Assembly: GCF_016811075.1 (NCBI RefSeq)
Contig: NZ_JAFBGL010000003.1
Location: 248,001 to 312,000, forward strand
Source of the DNA: Oceaniferula flava
GTDB lineage: Bacteria; Verrucomicrobiota; Verrucomicrobiia; Verrucomicrobiales; Akkermansiaceae
DNA length: 64,000 nucleotides
Direction: 5' to 3'
The notes under the pieces were generated by a model. The model worked only from the letters and a program-made list of their open reading frames with translations, had not been told where the DNA came from and made no database searches. Shown here piece after piece: positions 30,627 to 46,672 of this stretch (positions are counted from its first letter, which is position 1; every line of letters begins with the position of its first letter). The position numbers and the translations under genes were made by a program.

Positions 30627-31012
30627 TGCCGCTCCCCGGACGATCGCGGTGTCTCCTCGGAGGCATCGAGGAAAGTCCGGACGCCACAGGGCAGCGCGCC
30701 TCGTGAAGAACGAGGGACGACCGATGCAAGTCGGCCGGACGGAAAGTGCAGCAGAAAACAAACCGCCTGCTTCGGTAGGTAAGGGTGAAAAGGTGGGGTA
30801 AGAGCCCACCGCTCCAAGGGTAACCGAGGAGGCACGGTAAACCCCGCGCGGCGCAAGACATAACAGGGGAAGGGTGCCCGCCCGATCAGAATCCCCGGGT
30901 ATTAGTCGCACCATTCCGCAAGGAAGGTTCCTCGTTTCGGCGAGGAAAGATAAATGATCGTACAGCTCCGCGAAAGCGGGGTGGACAGAATCCGGCTTAC
31001 AGGGGAGCGGCA
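30627..31012 (+). ncRNA. rnpB: RNase P RNA (class A)
   Basis: The catalytic RNA of RNase P, about 386 bases. The ends pair (TGCCGCTCCCC with GGGGAGCGGCA, helix P1). The universally conserved cores are present: GAGGAAAGTCCGGAC near 30669 and ACAGAATCCGGCTTA near 30986. AGGGTGAAAAGGTGGGGTAAGAGCCCACCG is of the J11/12-P12 type. Open frames across it on either strand are spurious. Confidence 0.97.
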
Positions 31013-31091
31013 TATTTCTCCCTGCTTGGAAATCAGTGGGCAGGGGGCGCTTGCCAGTGGTCGGTGACCCGTGTCGCTTCGCGACTTTGCC

Positions 31092-40125: not shown

Positions 40126-41139
40126 TCATGGGCGGATGCTTATTTGATGCAGGTGATCGGCTTCTTGGGTGATGTGAATTGGCTCATTCAAAAACGCTTG
40201 GATCACCTTGATGTTGGTTTTGACATGATTGCTTGGGCTTAGCGTGATCATGCTGCCATCGCCTGCCAGGGCCATTGGGAGCAGCAGCTGATCGGCGAGG
40301 TGCGTTCCGACCACAGCGCCTGAGTTGAGGTAGTTTTTCATCGATTTGGCGGCGGCTCTCGCGACGCGTTCCGATGATTTTCCGTAGGTGCCGTGCGAGG
40401 TGACCATCTCGGTGACATGGCTGAATTGCATCATCGCCGATAGGCAGTTCCCCGGCGCTGAGGAGTCGCTGGCATCGATCGTTTCGCCACAGTCGGGATC
40501 CCAGCTCAGCGACTTGCAGGCCGCGGTGATTTCGCGCTCGGCGACGCTCTCCTGCACGTGAGCGAGGTGACACAGCACACGCCGCGATTGCTCCTCGCCT
40601 CGCTCGTTCAAATGCAGCGGTTTCAGCTCGGCGCAGGGTGAAATTCGGCAGCGGATCGCACCTCCACCGGCCGGCGCAAAACCATGACGCTGCAAATCCA
40701 GCTCCACCTTCGCCCCCATCTTGGTCAACTGGGGGAGGAAAACGTGTTGGAGAAAGCAGGCGCTTGGAGCCAGGGGATTATGAGTCCCTCCTTCTAACAA
40801 AATTGTCGACCCCTCACCGGCGCGCAGCAGGGCTGGAATCAATGTCTGGGCTAGCAGCGTGGTGCTGCCAGCGGTGCCGATCTTGAAATGGTAGTCGCCC
40901 GCAGTGATCGAGCCGGGGTTGAAAATGAGCTCGGTAGATCCCATCTCCGCGCCATCTGCCGAGCCGCCGGAGATTTCAAGCGCTGCCTGCACGCAGGTGA
41001 GGTGCTGGCGCATGAGACCTGGCTTTTTACGCAGTCCGCGAATGTTGGAAATGCGAAAAGCTTCCCCAGTGATCATGGAGAGCGAGAGAGCGGTGCGGAG
41101 GATCTGACCTCCGCCGTCTTGACCGTTGAGTGTTATCAT
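40126..41139 (-). CDS. rtcA: RNA 3'-terminal phosphate cyclase
   Basis: A 337-residue enzyme that converts RNA 3'-phosphate ends to 2',3'-cyclic phosphates using ATP. It starts MITLNGQDGGGQILRTALSL, the RtcA N-terminal signature. It continues with GLRKKPGLMRQHLTCVQAA and the segment TLLAQTLIPALLRAGEGSTI, then EGGTHNPLAPSACFLQHVFLP. The adenylated His of RtcA lies in the C-terminal region, where GTHLADQLLLPMALAG fits. It is 52 bases after rtcB and belongs to the rsr-Y RNA-rtcB-rtcA operon. Confidence 0.95.
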   Translation of the reverse strand: MITLNGQDGGGQILRTALSLSMITGEAFRISNIRGLRKKPGLMRQHLTCVQAALEISGGSADGAEMGSTELIFNPGSITAGDYHFKIGTAGSTTLLAQTLIPALLRAGEGSTILLEGGTHNPLAPSACFLQHVFLPQLTKMGAKVELDLQRHGFAPAGGGAIRCRISPCAELKPLHLNERGEEQSRRVLCHLAHVQESVAEREITAACKSLSWDPDCGETIDASDSSAPGNCLSAMMQFSHVTEMVTSHGTYGKSSERVARAAAKSMKNYLNSGAVVGTHLADQLLLPMALAGDGSMITLSPSNHVKTNIKVIQAFLNEPIHITQEADHLHQISIRP

Positions 41140-41191: not shown

Positions 41192-42673
41192 TTAGTCATC
41201 CGCCTTACTGGCATCCTTAATCACGAAGCGGGCGTCGAGCTTGGCCACGGTGTGGGCGAGCTCAGCTTTTTCCACGCTTTTGAGAACTTCGCTGAAGTCC
41301 TTGTAGGCATCGGGTGCTTCGTCACGGGGATACTTTCGGCAGTTGCTGAGGATGTCATGGGCATCGAGTTCGGTATCCACTTTTTCCTGATCGAGCGATC
41401 GGAATGCCTGTCCGCGTCCCAGACTGCGGCCGGCGCCGTGGTTCACCGAGTAGCAGGATTTCTCCGCTCCCGGCAGGGCGGCCATGACTACCGAGCCGTC
41501 GCGTGGGTTTCCAGGCAGTAGGATCGGGTGTCCGGTTTCGGAAAACGGCGTGTCTTTCAGGCTGTAGTGACCGGCAGGGAAGGCACGGGTCGCTCCCTTG
41601 CGGTGCACCCACTGGAACTGATCATTAACCTTCTCCTGACGCGCGATGTTATGGCTGATGAAGTAAACCAGCTGCCCGGTGGTGCCGGGGAGGATTTCTT
41701 GAAAAGCTTCTAACACCAGCGCGTTGATCAGCAGGTGGTTGACGGTGGCGAAGTTCGCTCCCAGCGACATGTCATCAATGTAAGCATCGGCTTCGGGTGT
41801 TCCCAGTGGCGCGTAGCAGAGGTGTTTGTCGTTGGCTGGGAAGGGGGTTCCCCAGGTATCGAATTTCTTCTGCAAACTACGGAACTGCGAGCTGGCGAGG
41901 TCGTGACCGAAACCACGAGACCCGCAGTGCGAGAGGAAGGCAATATTGCCGTCCGTTAGACCGAAGGTTTCGGCTGCGGTGCGTGCCTCGGGGGTGTCGG
42001 TGATGCTCACCGCTTCGGCCTCACCGAAGTGATTGCCTCCGCCGTAGGATCCGAACTGCTGCACCTTGCCTCGGAAGCGATCCGCGTAGCCGCCGCTGAG
42101 CATGCGGTCGAGCCGATCTTCCAGCGCGGCCTGTGATCGATCGTGACCCACGTGGAAGCTGTCTTCGCAGCGCTCTGCCCACTCGGGTGGGATCCCGATG
42201 GCTTCGCAAACTTCGTGAGACGCTCCTTGAGTCACCGCGAGCTTGCCGGTTTCGGCATCGATACTGCGTGATTTTTTTGCCGACCGCTGACCTTTTCCAG
42301 CCCCGGTGGGAGTGCGTTCGCAGATGGCGTTGATCAGGGCGCGGCGGGTGCTTTTGTCAGCAATCGCCTCCTGCGGCACGTTCATCTGGATCAGGCTCAT
42401 CGAGCACTTGATGTCCACGCCCACGGGGCCTGGGTAGATGTGTGTGGGCGAGGCCATCACACAGCCGATGGGTGCGTCGTAGCCGACGTGGGCGTCCGGG
42501 TTCAGCACCACCTCGGAAACGCCGGGGGCGGAGCGGGCGTTGAGGGCTTGAGAGAGACATTCGGACCCGAAGCCTTCACGGATCGCCTCGGTGCCGATCA
42601 CGGTGATCGGTTTACCTTTGTTATCGCGTGCGGGGAGGAAGCCGGTGGCTTCGCCGGTAGGGTGGATTTTCAT
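41192..42673 (-). CDS. rtcB: RNA-splicing ligase RtcB
   Basis: About 493 residues from the ATG at 42673. The open frame to 42829 runs through a Y RNA and is not coding. RtcB joins 2',3'-cyclic phosphate or 3'-phosphate RNA ends to 5'-OH ends with GTP and manganese. Metal- and GMP-site motifs are complete: NPDAHVGYDAPIGCVMAS, VGVDIKCSM, FLSHCGSRGFGHDLASSQF and the guanylylated His in VNHGAGRSLGRGQA. It is preceded by four Y RNA modules and followed by rtcA. Confidence 0.97.
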   Translation of the reverse strand: MKIHPTGEATGFLPARDNKGKPITVIGTEAIREGFGSECLSQALNARSAPGVSEVVLNPDAHVGYDAPIGCVMASPTHIYPGPVGVDIKCSMSLIQMNVPQEAIADKSTRRALINAICERTPTGAGKGQRSAKKSRSIDAETGKLAVTQGASHEVCEAIGIPPEWAERCEDSFHVGHDRSQAALEDRLDRMLSGGYADRFRGKVQQFGSYGGGNHFGEAEAVSITDTPEARTAAETFGLTDGNIAFLSHCGSRGFGHDLASSQFRSLQKKFDTWGTPFPANDKHLCYAPLGTPEADAYIDDMSLGANFATVNHLLINALVLEAFQEILPGTTGQLVYFISHNIARQEKVNDQFQWVHRKGATRAFPAGHYSLKDTPFSETGHPILLPGNPRDGSVVMAALPGAEKSCYSVNHGAGRSLGRGQAFRSLDQEKVDTELDAHDILSNCRKYPRDEAPDAYKDFSEVLKSVEKAELAHTVAKLDARFVIKDASKADD

Positions 42674-42703: not shown

Positions 42704-42838
42704 AAAGTGGTGACAAGGAGTTGAGAAACATTCTACTGCTCTACCAGGCTGAGCTACTGCGCGCTTTGTTAGAAACGGCAGGCCGGATTCGAACCAGCGA
42801 CCAATGGAGTCATGTAGTTCCTCTGGCATTCACCAGAT
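42704..42838 (-). ncRNA. Y RNA 4 (YrlA-like, with permuted tRNA mimic)
   Basis: The RNA reads from 42838 down. The Ro60-binding stem has CTGGTGAATGCCAGAGGAAC on the 5' side and CTCCTTGTCACCA on the 3' side. Inside, in order, are a variable-loop-like TGGTC, a T arm (GCTGG TTCGAAT CCGGC), an acceptor-like hairpin (CTGCCGTTT capped by CTAAC) and a classical D arm (GCTCAGCCTGGTAGAGC). T arm before acceptor before D arm is a circularly permuted tRNA, as known for YrlA, with the Y stem in place of the anticodon arm. Confidence 0.8.
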
Positions 42839-42855
42839 GGGTTTGATTTGGCTGT

Positions 42856-42974
42856 GGTTGGCGACAACCGGTGGGTGAGACATTTTCAGCTTCGTTAGAA
42901 GCCCACGGGGTTCGAACCCGCTCAAGCGTGTTTAGCGCTCTTGTCCGATGTAGTCTCACCCGCATTCGCCAGGT
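42856..42974 (-). ncRNA. Y RNA 3 (T-arm type)
   Basis: The 5' side ACCTGGCGAATGCGGGTGAG and 3' side CTCACCCACCGGTTGTCGCC form the Ro-binding stem (GGTGAGAC pairs perfectly with GTCTCACC; TGGCGA with TCGCCA). Inside are a serine-tRNA-like long variable arm (GAGCGCTAAACACGCTTGA), a T arm (GCGGG TTCGAAC CCCGT) and an acceptor-like hairpin (GCTTC TAAC GAAGC). No D arm is evident, so this mimic is shorter than those of Y RNAs 2 and 4. Confidence 0.75.
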
Positions 42975-42990
42975 GATTGGATTTGAAAAA

Positions 42991-43155
42991 TTTTGGTAAT
43001 GGATGGCAACAAGGGGGAGTGAAACGTTTTCGCGCTCTGCCTCTGAGCTACCGGGCCATAATTTGAAAAATGGTGGGCCCGGGTGGGACTCGAACCCACG
43101 ACCTCGCCGTCCATAACGATGTAGTTCCACAGGCATTTGCCAGCCATTACCAAAA
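42991..43155 (-). ncRNA. Y RNA 2 (YrlA-like, permuted tRNA mimic with CCA-like tail)
   Basis: A 12-base-pair closing stem (AAAAGGTAATGG-type ends: CCATTACCAAAA with TTTTGGTAATGG on the plus strand) encloses the Ro-binding core (TGGCAAATG and CTTGTTGCCA). The insert holds AGGTC, a perfect T arm (GTGGG TTCGAGT CCCAC), acceptor 3' strand CCGGGCC, then CACCA, a 13-base linker, acceptor 5' strand GGCCCGG, TA and a D arm (GCTC AGAGGCA GAGC). All seven acceptor pairs are Watson-Crick. This is a near-complete circularly permuted tRNA body. Confidence 0.82.
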
Positions 43156-43169
43156 GAATCTGTTTGCTG

Positions 43170-43250
43170 TGAGTTGCTGGCGACAAGGGAGTCGATGTGA
43201 CGTTTGACATAGGGTAAGATGTAGTCACGATCTGCATTCGCCAGCGAGGT
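43170..43250 (-). ncRNA. Y RNA 1 (simple stem-loop type)
   Basis: GCTGGCGAATGCAGATCGTG and GACTCCCTTGTCGCCAGC bound a hairpin of about 70 bases. GCTGGCGA pairs with TCGCCAGC, and GTGAC with GTCAC. The GGCGAATG...TTGTCGCC pair is the conserved Ro60-binding signature of bacterial Y RNAs. The loop contains CTACATC, shared by the modules downstream. No tRNA-like insert is present. It lies 30 bases after the rsr stop. Confidence 0.75.
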
Positions 43251-43280
43251 ATCCGTTTTACGAAGTTTCACACACAGGTG

Positions 43281-44876
43281 TTAGATAGCTTGTTTTTTCA
43301 TAGGTGTCTTGATGATGGTTTGATTGATTTCACCGATCCAGTGATCGGGGTGAAGTGATTTCGAAGCGAAGGCTGCGATGGTTTTGAAGACCTGGTCGGA
43401 AAATCCGCCGATGTTCAAGATGTCAGCACGTTCCTTCGCCTGGGTGGTTTCGTTCGGTGTGATATCGATGCAGACCATGCGGGCCTTGCTGTTACGCTGC
43501 TTGATCTGGTTCCACTCGCGCATGGTATTGGTCGCTCCGCCACCGAAGTATCCGTAGTGGGGAGAATCGATCCATGATTCGTTATCGGAAACAAAGATGA
43601 CCATGTCCACTGGGCGTCGGTATTTGTTGAGCCAGGCGAGGGGCGCGCTGCAGTTGGTTCCTCCACAGGGGAGGCTGGCCAGCTTCGTCGCATTTGTCAT
43701 CACCGAGTCGCGTGGGTTGAGATTCACCTTCACCACATCGTTCTCGAAAGGAAGTACGATGGCATTCGGGTTCTTTCTCAAGATCGCAGCGGTGGTGAGT
43801 GCCGCGACATCGAGGCAGCGGGTTTTCGACGTGGAACCCTTGCGGTAGCCGGTGACCGATCCGTGCATCGAGCCGGAAACATCCGTGCAGACAACGACGT
43901 TTCCCTTGATCTCAGGAACATTTTCCAAGGCGATTTCCATCGCATCCTGAAGGGCGTTCTTGATTTTGTTAGGAACATCATCCCCGGCATTGAGATACGC
44001 GGCCATGAGCTGATAGGGGAAAGCGCGAGCCTGTCTGATGAGTCGTGGATTCTTCAGACGGTTGGCGATTTTTCCACTCATACCGATCATCTTAAACACG
44101 CCCTGACGGGCAAAGGTGTTCAGGTTCATACGAGTCATCTGCCACGGCGCATTCTTGGCAATGGTGAGCCAGTCACGCTTTCCAAGCTCAAGCGAGGTGA
44201 GCATCTGGAAGGGGACCTTGGGAGGATTTCCCTCACGTGTGAGCTTCCAGTTTTCATACTGACGGATCACGGAAGGAAGGTTCTCCTCGCTGTAGGCCCG
44301 ACCAATGAGGTAGGCGTAGAAGGCTTCACGCTGCGCGTTTTTAGGGCGAGGGTGCACCATCTTGATCACATCTGCTAGAGATGGTGACTGACCGATGGAC
44401 GCGGCGAGCAGAGCTTCATCGTTAACTCGATTCAACCATGCCTGCACCATACGCTTGGGCGCACTTCCGAGCGACTTCCGACCGGTGATTCCGGAGCGAA
44501 CGATCTGCACGAAGTTTCGCAGCATCTTGCCGTTATCGATGACCTGAGGGAAGATCTCGGCCAGCAGGGCGACATCGCGATTAGCTAACAGAGCACAAAG
44601 CAGGGCAGGGGTGTCCTTCATGTAGGCTTTGCGTCGGCTGTAAATGGCGGTCTTCGCGAGGAAGTGATCGTCCACCTGTCCGGCAAGCTCGATGATCTTC
44701 TCTAACTGCTCACCGGCGGTGGCGTAGAAGGTTCCGTTCAGGCAGCCGGTGGCCACGTATTGGGCCAAGGCGTGCTGGGGAGTGAAGGCGTAGGCACGAC
44801 CTCCTGCCAGGTTGGTGGCATTGGTTTGCGGCAATTTTTTTCCGCGAGTGGATTGGAATAGGTTTTTGTTAGCCAT
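43281..44876 (-). CDS. rsr: Ro60 orthologue (TROVE and vWA domain RNA-binding protein)
   Basis: About 531 residues from the ATG at 44876. The frame is open to 44924, but that stretch covers the sigma-54 promoter. The N-terminal TROVE HEAT-like ring (AFTPQHALAQYVATGCLNGT; KTAIYSRRKAYMKDTPALLC; QIVRSGITGRKSLGSAPKRM) binds Y RNA and misfolded RNA. The C-terminal von Willebrand A domain has the MIDAS motif CTDVSGSMHG, then PCGGTNCSAPLAWL and VDMVIFVSDNESW. In other bacteria, Rsr with Y RNA guides exonucleases for RNA quality control. It is the first gene of the Y RNA-rtcB-rtcA operon. Confidence 0.95.
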   Translation of the reverse strand: MANKNLFQSTRGKKLPQTNATNLAGGRAYAFTPQHALAQYVATGCLNGTFYATAGEQLEKIIELAGQVDDHFLAKTAIYSRRKAYMKDTPALLCALLANRDVALLAEIFPQVIDNGKMLRNFVQIVRSGITGRKSLGSAPKRMVQAWLNRVNDEALLAASIGQSPSLADVIKMVHPRPKNAQREAFYAYLIGRAYSEENLPSVIRQYENWKLTREGNPPKVPFQMLTSLELGKRDWLTIAKNAPWQMTRMNLNTFARQGVFKMIGMSGKIANRLKNPRLIRQARAFPYQLMAAYLNAGDDVPNKIKNALQDAMEIALENVPEIKGNVVVCTDVSGSMHGSVTGYRKGSTSKTRCLDVAALTTAAILRKNPNAIVLPFENDVVKVNLNPRDSVMTNATKLASLPCGGTNCSAPLAWLNKYRRPVDMVIFVSDNESWIDSPHYGYFGGGATNTMREWNQIKQRNSKARMVCIDITPNETTQAKERADILNIGGFSDQVFKTIAAFASKSLHPDHWIGEINQTIIKTPMKKQAI

Positions 44877-44907: not shown

Positions 44908-44923
44908 TGCAGAGGCTGTGCCA
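44908..44923 (-). promoter_or_regulatory. Sigma-54 promoter of the rsr operon
   Basis: The minus strand reads TGGCACAGCCTCTGCA. GG (-24) and GC (-12) are exactly 10 bases apart and the match to TGGCAC-N5-TTGCA is nearly complete. It lies about 32 bases before the rsr start, and the start point is predicted near 44898. This agrees with control by the sigma-54 activator RtcR encoded divergently. Confidence 0.88.
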
Positions 44924-45066: not shown

Positions 45067-45082
45067 AGCGTATGAGGTGTTC

Positions 45083-46672
45083 ATGAAAAAGCGTGTAGTG
45101 ATGGGTTTCCTGGGGACCAAATTGGACATGGGCTTCGGTCCGGATCGTTGGGAGCGGTGGCGGCCTACGGTCTCGATCTGCTCGCAGGAGGGCTCGATGG
45201 TGGACCGCTATGAGCTGCTGTATGAGCAGCGCTATCAGAAGTTGGCAGACCGAGTGATGGAGGACCTCCGTCAGGTATCACCCGAGACCGACGTGCGCGG
45301 GCACATCGTGGGCATCAGGAAGCCCTGGGACTTTGAGGACGTGTTTGGTCACTTGCATGACTTCCTGAAGGGGTATGATTTCGATGTGGAAAAGGAGGAG
45401 TATGAAGCGCACATCACCACCGGAACTCACGTGGCACAGATCTGTCTGTTCCTCCTCACCGAATCTCGACACCTGCCGGGGAAACTTTTGCAAACCGGTC
45501 CGCCAAGAGGCCGCAAAGCCAAGACCGGTTTCGGCTCGGTGAGTCTGATCGATCTCGACCTCTCGAAATACGACCAGCTGGCCACCCGCTTCAATGCCGA
45601 GCAGTTAGAGGCACTGGATTTCCTCAAGTCCGGCATCGCCACGCGAAACAAAGCATTCAATGAGCTGATCGAAAAAATCGAAGTGGTCGCTCTCCGCTCG
45701 GCTGCACCGATCCTACTCACCGGTCCCACGGGGGCAGGGAAGTCTCAGCTGGCGCGGCGTATTTATGAACTCCGCCAGCAGCGCGGCGGCCTCGACGGTG
45801 GTTTTGTTGAGGTGAACTGTGCCACTCTGCGAGGCGACACCGCCATGAGTGCCTTGTTTGGTCATAAAAAAGGAGCGTTTACGGGGGCGCAATCTGACCG
45901 ACCCGGACTACTGCGCCAAGCCCATGGCGGCATGCTTTTCCTCGATGAAATCGGTGAGCTAGGCGTGGACGAACAAGCAGTGCTACTGCGTGCGGTGGAG
46001 GAGGGAATGTATCTACCCGTCGGTGCGGACCAGCCGGTGAAAAGTAAGTTCCAACTGATTGCCGGAACCAATCGTGATCTCAGCAAGGAAGTCAGCAGCG
46101 GTGGTTTCCGTGAAGATCTGTTAGCACGAATCAACGTCTGGACCTTCCAGCTGCCTGGCCTCGCGGATCGGACAGAAGACATCGAGCCGAATCTCGACTA
46201 TGAACTACGTGAGTTCTCTAACAAAAACGGCCGAGCCGTCACGTTCAACAAAGAAGCCCGACAAAATTTCCTGCAATTTGCCAAAAGCCCTCAAGCTCCC
46301 TGGCGAGGAAACTTCCGAGATCTCAACGCCGCCATAAGCCGGATGGCCACCCTGGCACCGCAAGGACGGATCAGAGCCGAAGAGGTGGCAGACGAATGCA
46401 AACGCCTCACCCAATCCTGGCACCGACCCGAAGAGGCTTCCATCGCAAACGACTTAAGCGAGGTATTGGAGCCTGACGTGTTAGAAAACATCGACCCCTT
46501 CGATGCCGTGCAGCTCAGCTATGTCGTGGAAGTATGCAGGAAATCCAAAAACATCAGCGAAGCCGGACGCACCCTCTTCGCAGTGTCCAGAGCACAGAAA
46601 AAGACCTCCAATGACTCAGACCGATTGAGAAAGTATCTCGCCAAGTTCGAGCTTCAGTTTGGTGACCTTTGA
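45083..46672 (+). CDS. rtcR: Sigma-54-dependent RNA-repair activator RtcR
   Basis: About 529 residues from the ATG at 45083, which fits the family start MKKRVVMGFLGTKLDMGFG. A GTG at 45077 is also open. The N-terminal CARF-like sensor domain (residues 1-180) contains WDFEDVFGHLHDFLKGYDF and EAHITTGTHVAQICLFLLTE. The AAA+ domain has Walker A GPTGAGKSQLARRI, the sigma-54 contact loop KKGAFTGAQ and Walker B GGMLFLDEIGELG. It ends with a C-terminal DNA-binding region. RtcR is known to sense RNA termini or fragments and switch on rtcBA. It is divergent from rsr. Confidence 0.96.
   Translation: MKKRVVMGFLGTKLDMGFGPDRWERWRPTVSICSQEGSMVDRYELLYEQRYQKLADRVMEDLRQVSPETDVRGHIVGIRKPWDFEDVFGHLHDFLKGYDFDVEKEEYEAHITTGTHVAQICLFLLTESRHLPGKLLQTGPPRGRKAKTGFGSVSLIDLDLSKYDQLATRFNAEQLEALDFLKSGIATRNKAFNELIEKIEVVALRSAAPILLTGPTGAGKSQLARRIYELRQQRGGLDGGFVEVNCATLRGDTAMSALFGHKKGAFTGAQSDRPGLLRQAHGGMLFLDEIGELGVDEQAVLLRAVEEGMYLPVGADQPVKSKFQLIAGTNRDLSKEVSSGGFREDLLARINVWTFQLPGLADRTEDIEPNLDYELREFSNKNGRAVTFNKEARQNFLQFAKSPQAPWRGNFRDLNAAISRMATLAPQGRIRAEEVADECKRLTQSWHRPEEASIANDLSEVLEPDVLENIDPFDAVQLSYVVEVCRKSKNISEAGRTLFAVSRAQKKTSNDSDRLRKYLAKFELQFGDL

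Follow-up and report, generated by a model that had tools for sequence, protein, structure and literature searches.

The interval between rsr and rtcB in Oceaniferula flava (Akkermansiaceae) probably encodes four Y RNAs, tethers that would present different tRNA-like heads on one Ro60 protein (Rsr) within an RtcR/sigma-54 RNA-repair operon. We analyzed this interval in a stretch of 64,000 nucleotides (NZ_JAFBGL010000003.1, positions 248,001 to 312,000), hereafter called the window, in whose numbering all coordinates are given. An initial annotation, made from the sequence alone, had described four Y RNAs there but had not raised tRNA mimicry; the apparent mimicry by the heads is, in our reading, the more interesting part.

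Four Y RNA-type modules lie between rsr and rtcB

The gap between rsr (43281 to 44876) and the rtcB start codon (ATG at 42673) measures 607 bases, and both genes lie on the minus strand. Scanning it with a module motif derived from Rfam alignments (outer stem, ATGC, CTACAT) bore out the four minus-strand modules of the initial annotation: M1 (43178 to 43243), M2 (43004 to 43142), M3 (42859 to 42971), and M4 (42708 to 42835). They have a common anatomy of a 6-bp outer stem, ATGC, a second stem, and CTACAT. The annotated pairing of 5' and 3' halves and the common CTACAT element were likewise recovered, CTACAT being present and the outer hexamers fully complementary in all four modules; three versions of the hexamer pair are represented (TGGCGA/TCGCCA twice, TGGCAA/TTGCCA, and TGGTGA/TCACCA). 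Because pairing, with one outer-stem mismatch tolerated, is itself a criterion of the scan, the appropriate control is the null rate in shuffled loci; this amounted to 575 matches in 13.8 Mb, or 0.042 per kb, corresponding to about 0.03 matches expected in 607 bases.

With a Ro60-type outer stem, ATGC, CTACAT, and a position adjoining rsr, all four modules qualify by sequence as bacterial Y RNAs in the wide sense. Membership in an Rfam family is more restricted, and the YrlA covariance search proposed by the initial annotation succeeded only in part. M4 scored 73.5 bits against YrlA (RF02553), above the gathering threshold of 69, and is a canonical YrlA with a T arm, an extended acceptor hairpin, and a D arm. 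M2 (67.4 bits, E = 3e-15) and M3 (28.8 bits, E = 4e-4) remained below this threshold and are YrlA-like, not members. M1, a minimal Y RNA with 6/6 outer-stem pairs, ATGC, and CTACAT, matched only YrlB (RF02565), weakly (20.2 bits, E = 0.27) and far under the cutoff of 97. The rest of the genome gave two weak YrlA matches only (21.4 and 18.2 bits; C21), both overlapping ordinary tRNA-Ala and tRNA-Ile genes. Folding of the single modules, also proposed earlier, gave z-scores of -1.48 (M1), -1.59 (M2), -3.16 (M3, nearly the same stretch), and -0.84 (M4); by itself this is weak support, and it was uninformative for M1, M2, and M4.

The modules carry different heads. M1 has none. In M4, only 14 nucleotides separate CTACA from the T stem, and there is therefore no anticodon hairpin. 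M3 contains an acceptor-like hairpin and lacks a D arm; its minimum free energy (MFE) fold shows a T arm (42905 to 42921, minus strand) and, two bases (GA) 5' of the T stem, an extra hairpin GAGCG-CUAAACA-CGCUU with 5 bp and a 7-base loop (42924 to 42940, minus strand). In relatives, T-only heads were also seen, several with GG soon after CTACA (by eye). The idea of several architectures thus holds, but their number is four and not the three first proposed. Similarly, the modules are differently decorated, as had been suggested, but a role as guides was not supported, the heads pointing instead to tRNA mimicry.

The M2 head can be read as a complete tRNA in circular permutation

By sequence comparison, the head of M2 corresponds to tRNA positions 29 to 76 followed by positions 1 to 28, the anticodon loop included. 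All of its parts lie on the minus strand. The anticodon hairpin UCG-UUAUGGA-CGG (43107 to 43119, tRNA positions 29 to 41) lies at precisely the distance from the T arm that a tRNA would have and is followed on its 3' side by CG, AGGUC, and the T arm itself (43083 to 43099), the latter supported by sequence, Rfam alignment, and folding. The lower anticodon-stem pairs are C-G (27-43) and G-C (28-42). The acceptor stem of 7 bp (43051 to 43082, by parsing and folding) has its strands joined by an 18-nucleotide linker starting with CACCA, and the D arm (43034 to 43048, by sequence and folding) completes the set. M2 hence has no free CCA end, and CACCA is one base more than N-CCA. The arms do not follow the canonical order: ARAGORN found no tRNA in the linear window and called the M2 insert a tRNA only once it was closed into a circle. 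We also considered that the heads had been copied from one particular host tRNA, but M2 and M4 resemble several of the genome's own tRNAs about equally, and this was rejected.

A permuted anticodon hairpin recurs in related loci

We then examined 114 rsr loci, comprising 10 from a search of the phylum (10/288 genomes, window included), 80 from genome contigs (80 of 237 matches), and 24 further ones from a family search (30 loci of 40 matches), some of which repeat genome-contig records. The motif scan yielded 331 distinct modules, identical ones being counted once, against a null of 0.022 per kb at the laxer threshold behind this number. Modules scoring under 8.5 were dropped from later counts. 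As pairing is a criterion of the scan here too, the number of modules does not in itself test covariation, which was counted by our own scripts.

When the inserts of the 245 modules of 85 to 200 nucleotides were circularized, ARAGORN called a sense tRNA in 116 of them. The same modules gave no call as linear sequences, none in antisense, and none in 10 shuffled sets.

For the anticodon, the T arm was located by sequence alone and the region upstream was then inspected at the spacing that a tRNA requires. This was feasible for 99 of the 331 modules, the other 232 having no T motif or fewer than 18 nucleotides before the T stem. Pairs 29-31/39-41 were all three formed at the exact spacing in 40/99 modules, M2 being one of them, compared to 6, 6, 6, and 0 at variable-loop lengths of 3, 4, 6, and 7. 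Permuting the 3' strands among modules reduced the 40 to a mean of 6.8, with a maximum of 15 in 2000 permutations. The three pairs together with a Y-U-N-N-N-R-N loop (Y32, U33, R37) occurred in 37 modules, and in 0 to 5 when the position examined was moved by three bases or fewer; in the 40 loops, U33 was found in 39, a pyrimidine at position 32 in all 40, and a purine at position 37 in 38. Pairs 27-43 and 28-42, one strand of which comes from the far D-half of the RNA, were both formed in 38/39. Furthermore, the loop was identical to an anticodon loop of the window genome's own tRNAs in 13/99 modules, versus 0 to 2 at shifts. The 37 modules with the full signature display 20 anticodons. Modules of this anticodon class tend to stand at the end of the array downstream of rsr (last, 21; middle, 10; first, 1). 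Separately, position 35 was never G in the 40 loops.

Nine modules were called tRNA by ARAGORN when opened in the D loop and not in the anticodon loop, with the anticodon arm kept, indicating that a second permutation exists (positions relative to the rsr match end: L029 at 193, L030 at -3532, L032 at 183, L034 at 184, L046 at 124, L051 at -3155, L056 at -4547, L059 at 383, and L078 at -2303). One of them, L051 at -3155, also belongs to the 40. A strict grammar for this opening matched 4/219 modules and 0/4380 shuffles. Heads of a similar kind were noticed by eye in Rhizobium and Novosphingobium plasmids.

The D arms of some heads are of what we take to be the Leu type (five heads: L012, L102, L108, L110, and L116) or the initiator type (eight heads: L013, L014, L016, L018, L102, L110, L116, and L118). 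A Leu-type D arm went with a long variable arm in 3/5 heads versus 11/156 (p = 0.005), a weak association given the small numbers and the near identity of two of the three. Over 178 modules, the T-arm and D-arm isotype profiles correlated at 0.10 (permuted mean 0.00, reached in 0/500 permutations), a value to which we attach little weight because related modules were left in.

The triplet varies while the body is conserved

For this comparison, modules were paired if their T arm and acceptor matched at 85% identity or more, which gave 246 pairs (mean identity of these parts 0.90) drawn from 70 modules, 39 of them with the full hairpin. Identity was 0.92 in the D arm, 0.86 in the outer stem, and 0.74 in the variable loop but only 0.44 in the anticodon hairpin and 0.29 in the triplet, near the 0.25 expected by chance. 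Within the anticodon class only (121 pairs, body at least 80% identical), the values were 0.36 for the triplet, 0.46 for the hairpin stem, and 0.88 for the outer stem. Since the pairs overlap and are not all orthologous, these figures are descriptions and no test of selection.

A held-out set of 43 new modules from 12 unused loci (three from the same class and nine plasmids) agrees in part with the anticodon-hairpin reading. The hairpin was formed at the exact spacing in 7/19 testable modules, as in Rhizobium rhizogenes (AGG-CUGUUAC-CCU) and Shinella (AGG-CUGUUAA-CCU), compared to 0 to 2 at the other shifts, -3 excepted. The loop signature occurred 4 times at the exact spacing, twice at -3, and nowhere else. 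We also collected 85 rsr loci from phage-like contigs (L166 to L250), 47 of which have a module, with 112 modules in total.

Several observations weigh against reading the M2 type as a tRNA with an anticodon arm. The MFE fold of M2 prefers a competing hairpin with a GAC/GUC pairing, leaving the anticodon hairpin a pair probability of about 0.07; a fold forced to keep it reaches -43.3 kcal/mol versus -46.4 kcal/mol for the MFE, the whole tRNA-like structure as written scores -33.3 kcal/mol, and pair 29-41 is a U-G. The anticodon reading moreover arose from the same loci as its first test. In the held-out set, the hairpin was also formed in 4/13 modules at -3, four of the seven matches are orthologous rhizobial modules (L279, L280, L281, and L286), and two of these four have C at position 33 in place of U33. 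Finally, the phage-like set was mixed, with 10/31 at the exact spacing but 8/31 one base off, and the loop signature was found 4 times at the exact spacing and 5 times one base off. One base off corresponds to a four-base variable loop, which is found in real tRNAs too.

Y RNA arrays and tRNA genes at other rsr loci

Four modules in one operon had been called unusual, but this did not hold among relatives. Counted over the 94 distinct loci for which 1 kb or more downstream of rsr was available, 0 to 8 modules were found in 1, 7, 29, 25, 16, 9, 3, 3, and 1 loci, respectively. At least four are thus present in 32/94 loci, and an array of four is ordinary. These sizes are lower bounds, as the scan misses outer stems with more than one mismatch. 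In 14 of these loci, Rfam gave 19 YrlA matches above threshold versus 77 scan modules, so that Rfam undercounts if the scan is right. In two Pseudomonas plasmids (L284 and L285), rsr is followed by a row of minimal Y RNAs, each 56 to 65 nucleotides long (five and six, respectively). Two modules were found in Methylosinus trichosporium OB3b (L278) and four in Rhizobium etli (L286). At another locus (L020), the modules at +380 and +752 (214 and 219 nucleotides) both have, around the T arm and acceptor, a large insert that is similar in the two.

rsr itself was found in 0/13 listed congeners, several of whose genomes are incomplete, compared to 40/260 genomes of the family, the window genome included. 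Its distribution in the family is patchy, pointing to loss or transfer.

At 14 of the 80 genome-contig loci, 8 to 20 same-strand tRNA genes accompany rsr, nearly all upstream, and the Y RNAs stand among or after them. These loci are all titled Acidobacteriota or groups of it (L023, L030, L036, L049, L051, L052, L056, L057, L063, L067, L071, L076, L078, and L092). In the phage-like set, at least one tRNA gene was present in 44/85 loci and five or more in 17/85, with up to 35, counts that are without control for phage tRNA content.

The modules belong to an RNA-repair operon

The order of elements is rtcR (divergent), a sigma-54 box, rsr, M1 to M4, rtcB, and rtcA. The rsr product has TROVE (24.9 bits) and vWA_Ro60 (76.1 bits) domains, both above the Pfam cutoffs, and matches Deinococcus radiodurans Rsr (2nvo) at E = 1.4e-23. 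Its translation contains DVSGS, which fits the DxSxS motif expected of Ro60/Rsr proteins. The -24/-12 box TGGCACAGCCTCTGC lies upstream of rsr (44909 to 44923, minus strand), and such a box was found upstream of rsr in 80/112 loci versus a mean of 2.2 in shuffles. rtcR (45077 to 46672, plus strand) encodes the divergent activator (Pfam RtcR, 262.8 bits; Sigma54_activat, 167.7 bits), rtcB (41192 to 42673, minus strand) an RNA ligase (RtcB, 335.9 bits), and rtcA (40126 to 41139, minus strand) an RNA 3'-phosphate cyclase (RTC, 249.8 bits). All the components of an RtcR/sigma-54 RNA-repair operon are therefore present, which agrees with the earlier placement of Y RNA-type modules within an rsr-rtcBA operon. 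Elsewhere, the window carries a bacterial class A RNase P RNA (30628 to 31015, plus strand).

What the heads may do

We favor, as the probable interpretation, an operon in which one Rsr is served by four predicted Y RNAs acting as tethers with different tRNA-like heads. tRNA damage would switch the operon on, and tRNA fragments do so in Salmonella according to an excerpt of a study of that operon (PMC7790460). The outer stem would dock each Y RNA on the Rsr ring, and each head would recruit a different tRNA-binding partner, such as PNPase (the case in RYPER) or a tRNA-modifying enzyme; an excerpt of a review likewise describes a Y RNA tethering Rsr to PNPase (PMC8394870). With a common stem and different heads, one Rsr ring could make several particles. 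RNAs of this kind may stand in for genuine tRNAs when the latter come under attack.

A possible, though rather improbable, alternative is that heads with an anticodon loop, such as M2, are decoys, which anticodon nucleases would cleave as a sacrifice or by which these enzymes would be inhibited competitively, RtcB being able to reseal them. The triplet would then change fast because the attackers change, and it is indeed the variable part (0.29 identity over the 246 pairs and 0.36 within the anticodon class) of an otherwise conserved RNA, in which hairpin pairing is kept across the 20 anticodons. The presence of RtcB and RtcA in the same operon, the arrays of real tRNA genes beside rsr in 14/80 loci, and the competitive inhibition by YrlA suggested in the Salmonella excerpt (PMC7790460) would also fit. 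However, the module pairs are non-independent and not all orthologous, the loop occurs in one of the four window modules only, and YrlA fragments were not detected in Salmonella as far as that excerpt goes. We also tried the idea that the anticodon class goes with a downstream rtcB, which was rejected (rtcB in 21/31 loci with the class and 47/70 without; p = 1), and this lack of linkage also counts against decoys. A fuller version, in which Ro60-bound Y RNAs are complete circularly permuted tRNAs with a constant body and a fast-changing anticodon, work as repairable baits for anticodon nucleases, and in Acidobacteriota are joined by a stand-by tRNA array, seems a little less probable again. 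If it were true, the operon would be a tRNA-damage defence with interchangeable anticodons. More generally, if many such RNAs keep a full anticodon hairpin while varying its triplet, they may function in relation to attack on, or sensing of, anticodons. Such a role would tie the Y RNAs to the adjoining rtcBA repair genes and offers a concrete test of the reason for which RtcB is encoded together with Ro60 and Y RNAs.

We consider it unlikely that the heads are relics of captured or tandem tRNA genes, left to drift while the Ro60 stem and bulk alone matter. N-CCA directly after the 7-base acceptor strand, kept in 8/39 anticodon-class and 7/150 other modules, would fit such an origin, as would the arms missing from many heads, the intermingling of Y RNAs and tRNA genes in Acidobacteriota, and the examples in which no single tRNA accounts for both the anticodon and the body (L076, for instance, combines a Glu-type loop with a GCTC-type D arm). 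Drift alone, however, would not keep five anticodon-stem pairs together with U33 and R37 despite sequence change. That the modules are not expressed or resemble Y RNAs by chance is very improbable, since the weak fold z-scores of M1, M2, and M4 stand against Rfam matches, the operon context, and recurrence beside rsr. Least credible of all are permuted genes for working tRNAs: every arm is present in M2-type heads and some have ACCA after the 7-bp acceptor, but a linker or loop joins the acceptor strands in the parsed modules, an encoded CCA had to be dismissed as a working end, being a minority feature (N-CCA in 15/189 only), the Ro60 stem interrupts the body, and A34 occurs in 16/40 loops, of which 9 read other than ACG, no other A34 anticodon being known as common in bacteria.

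Comparison with known systems

A precedent for the tRNA-array loci of Acidobacteriota is the stress-induced tRNA array of Anabaena, which is under the same repressor as rtcB; the part of that report available to us mentions no Ro60 or Y RNA (PMC10272220), and the window has no such array. Our literature searches, which covered titles and the starts of abstracts, with the primary YrlA papers outside their scope, returned nothing on an anticodon hairpin and nothing on tRNA arrays at rsr among the matches listed. In the review excerpt, three tRNA arms (D, T, and acceptor), and no other, are named as resembling the YrlA head (PMC8394870), and according to an excerpt of a further paper, YrlA can be superposed on tRNA if a circular permutation is allowed for (PMC11472068).

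M4 is like YrlA (RF02553; Salmonella YrlA, PDB 6CU1) throughout. M2 is like it in the outer stem, T arm, acceptor, D arm, and permuted order, but its anticodon hairpin is an insert relative to the Rfam consensus, which is without it, and M3 differs in lacking a D arm. M1 resembles YrlB (RF02565) in being short and in its outer stem, ATGC, and CTACAT, although not in score (20.2 bits versus a cutoff of 97). As a whole, the locus is closest in layout to the rsr-yrlBA-rtcBA operon of Salmonella, as outlined in the excerpt of PMC7790460, with rsr, Y RNAs, rtcB, rtcA, and RtcR in common and a sigma-54 box found in the window; the Salmonella operon has two Y RNAs, and that of O. flava has four.

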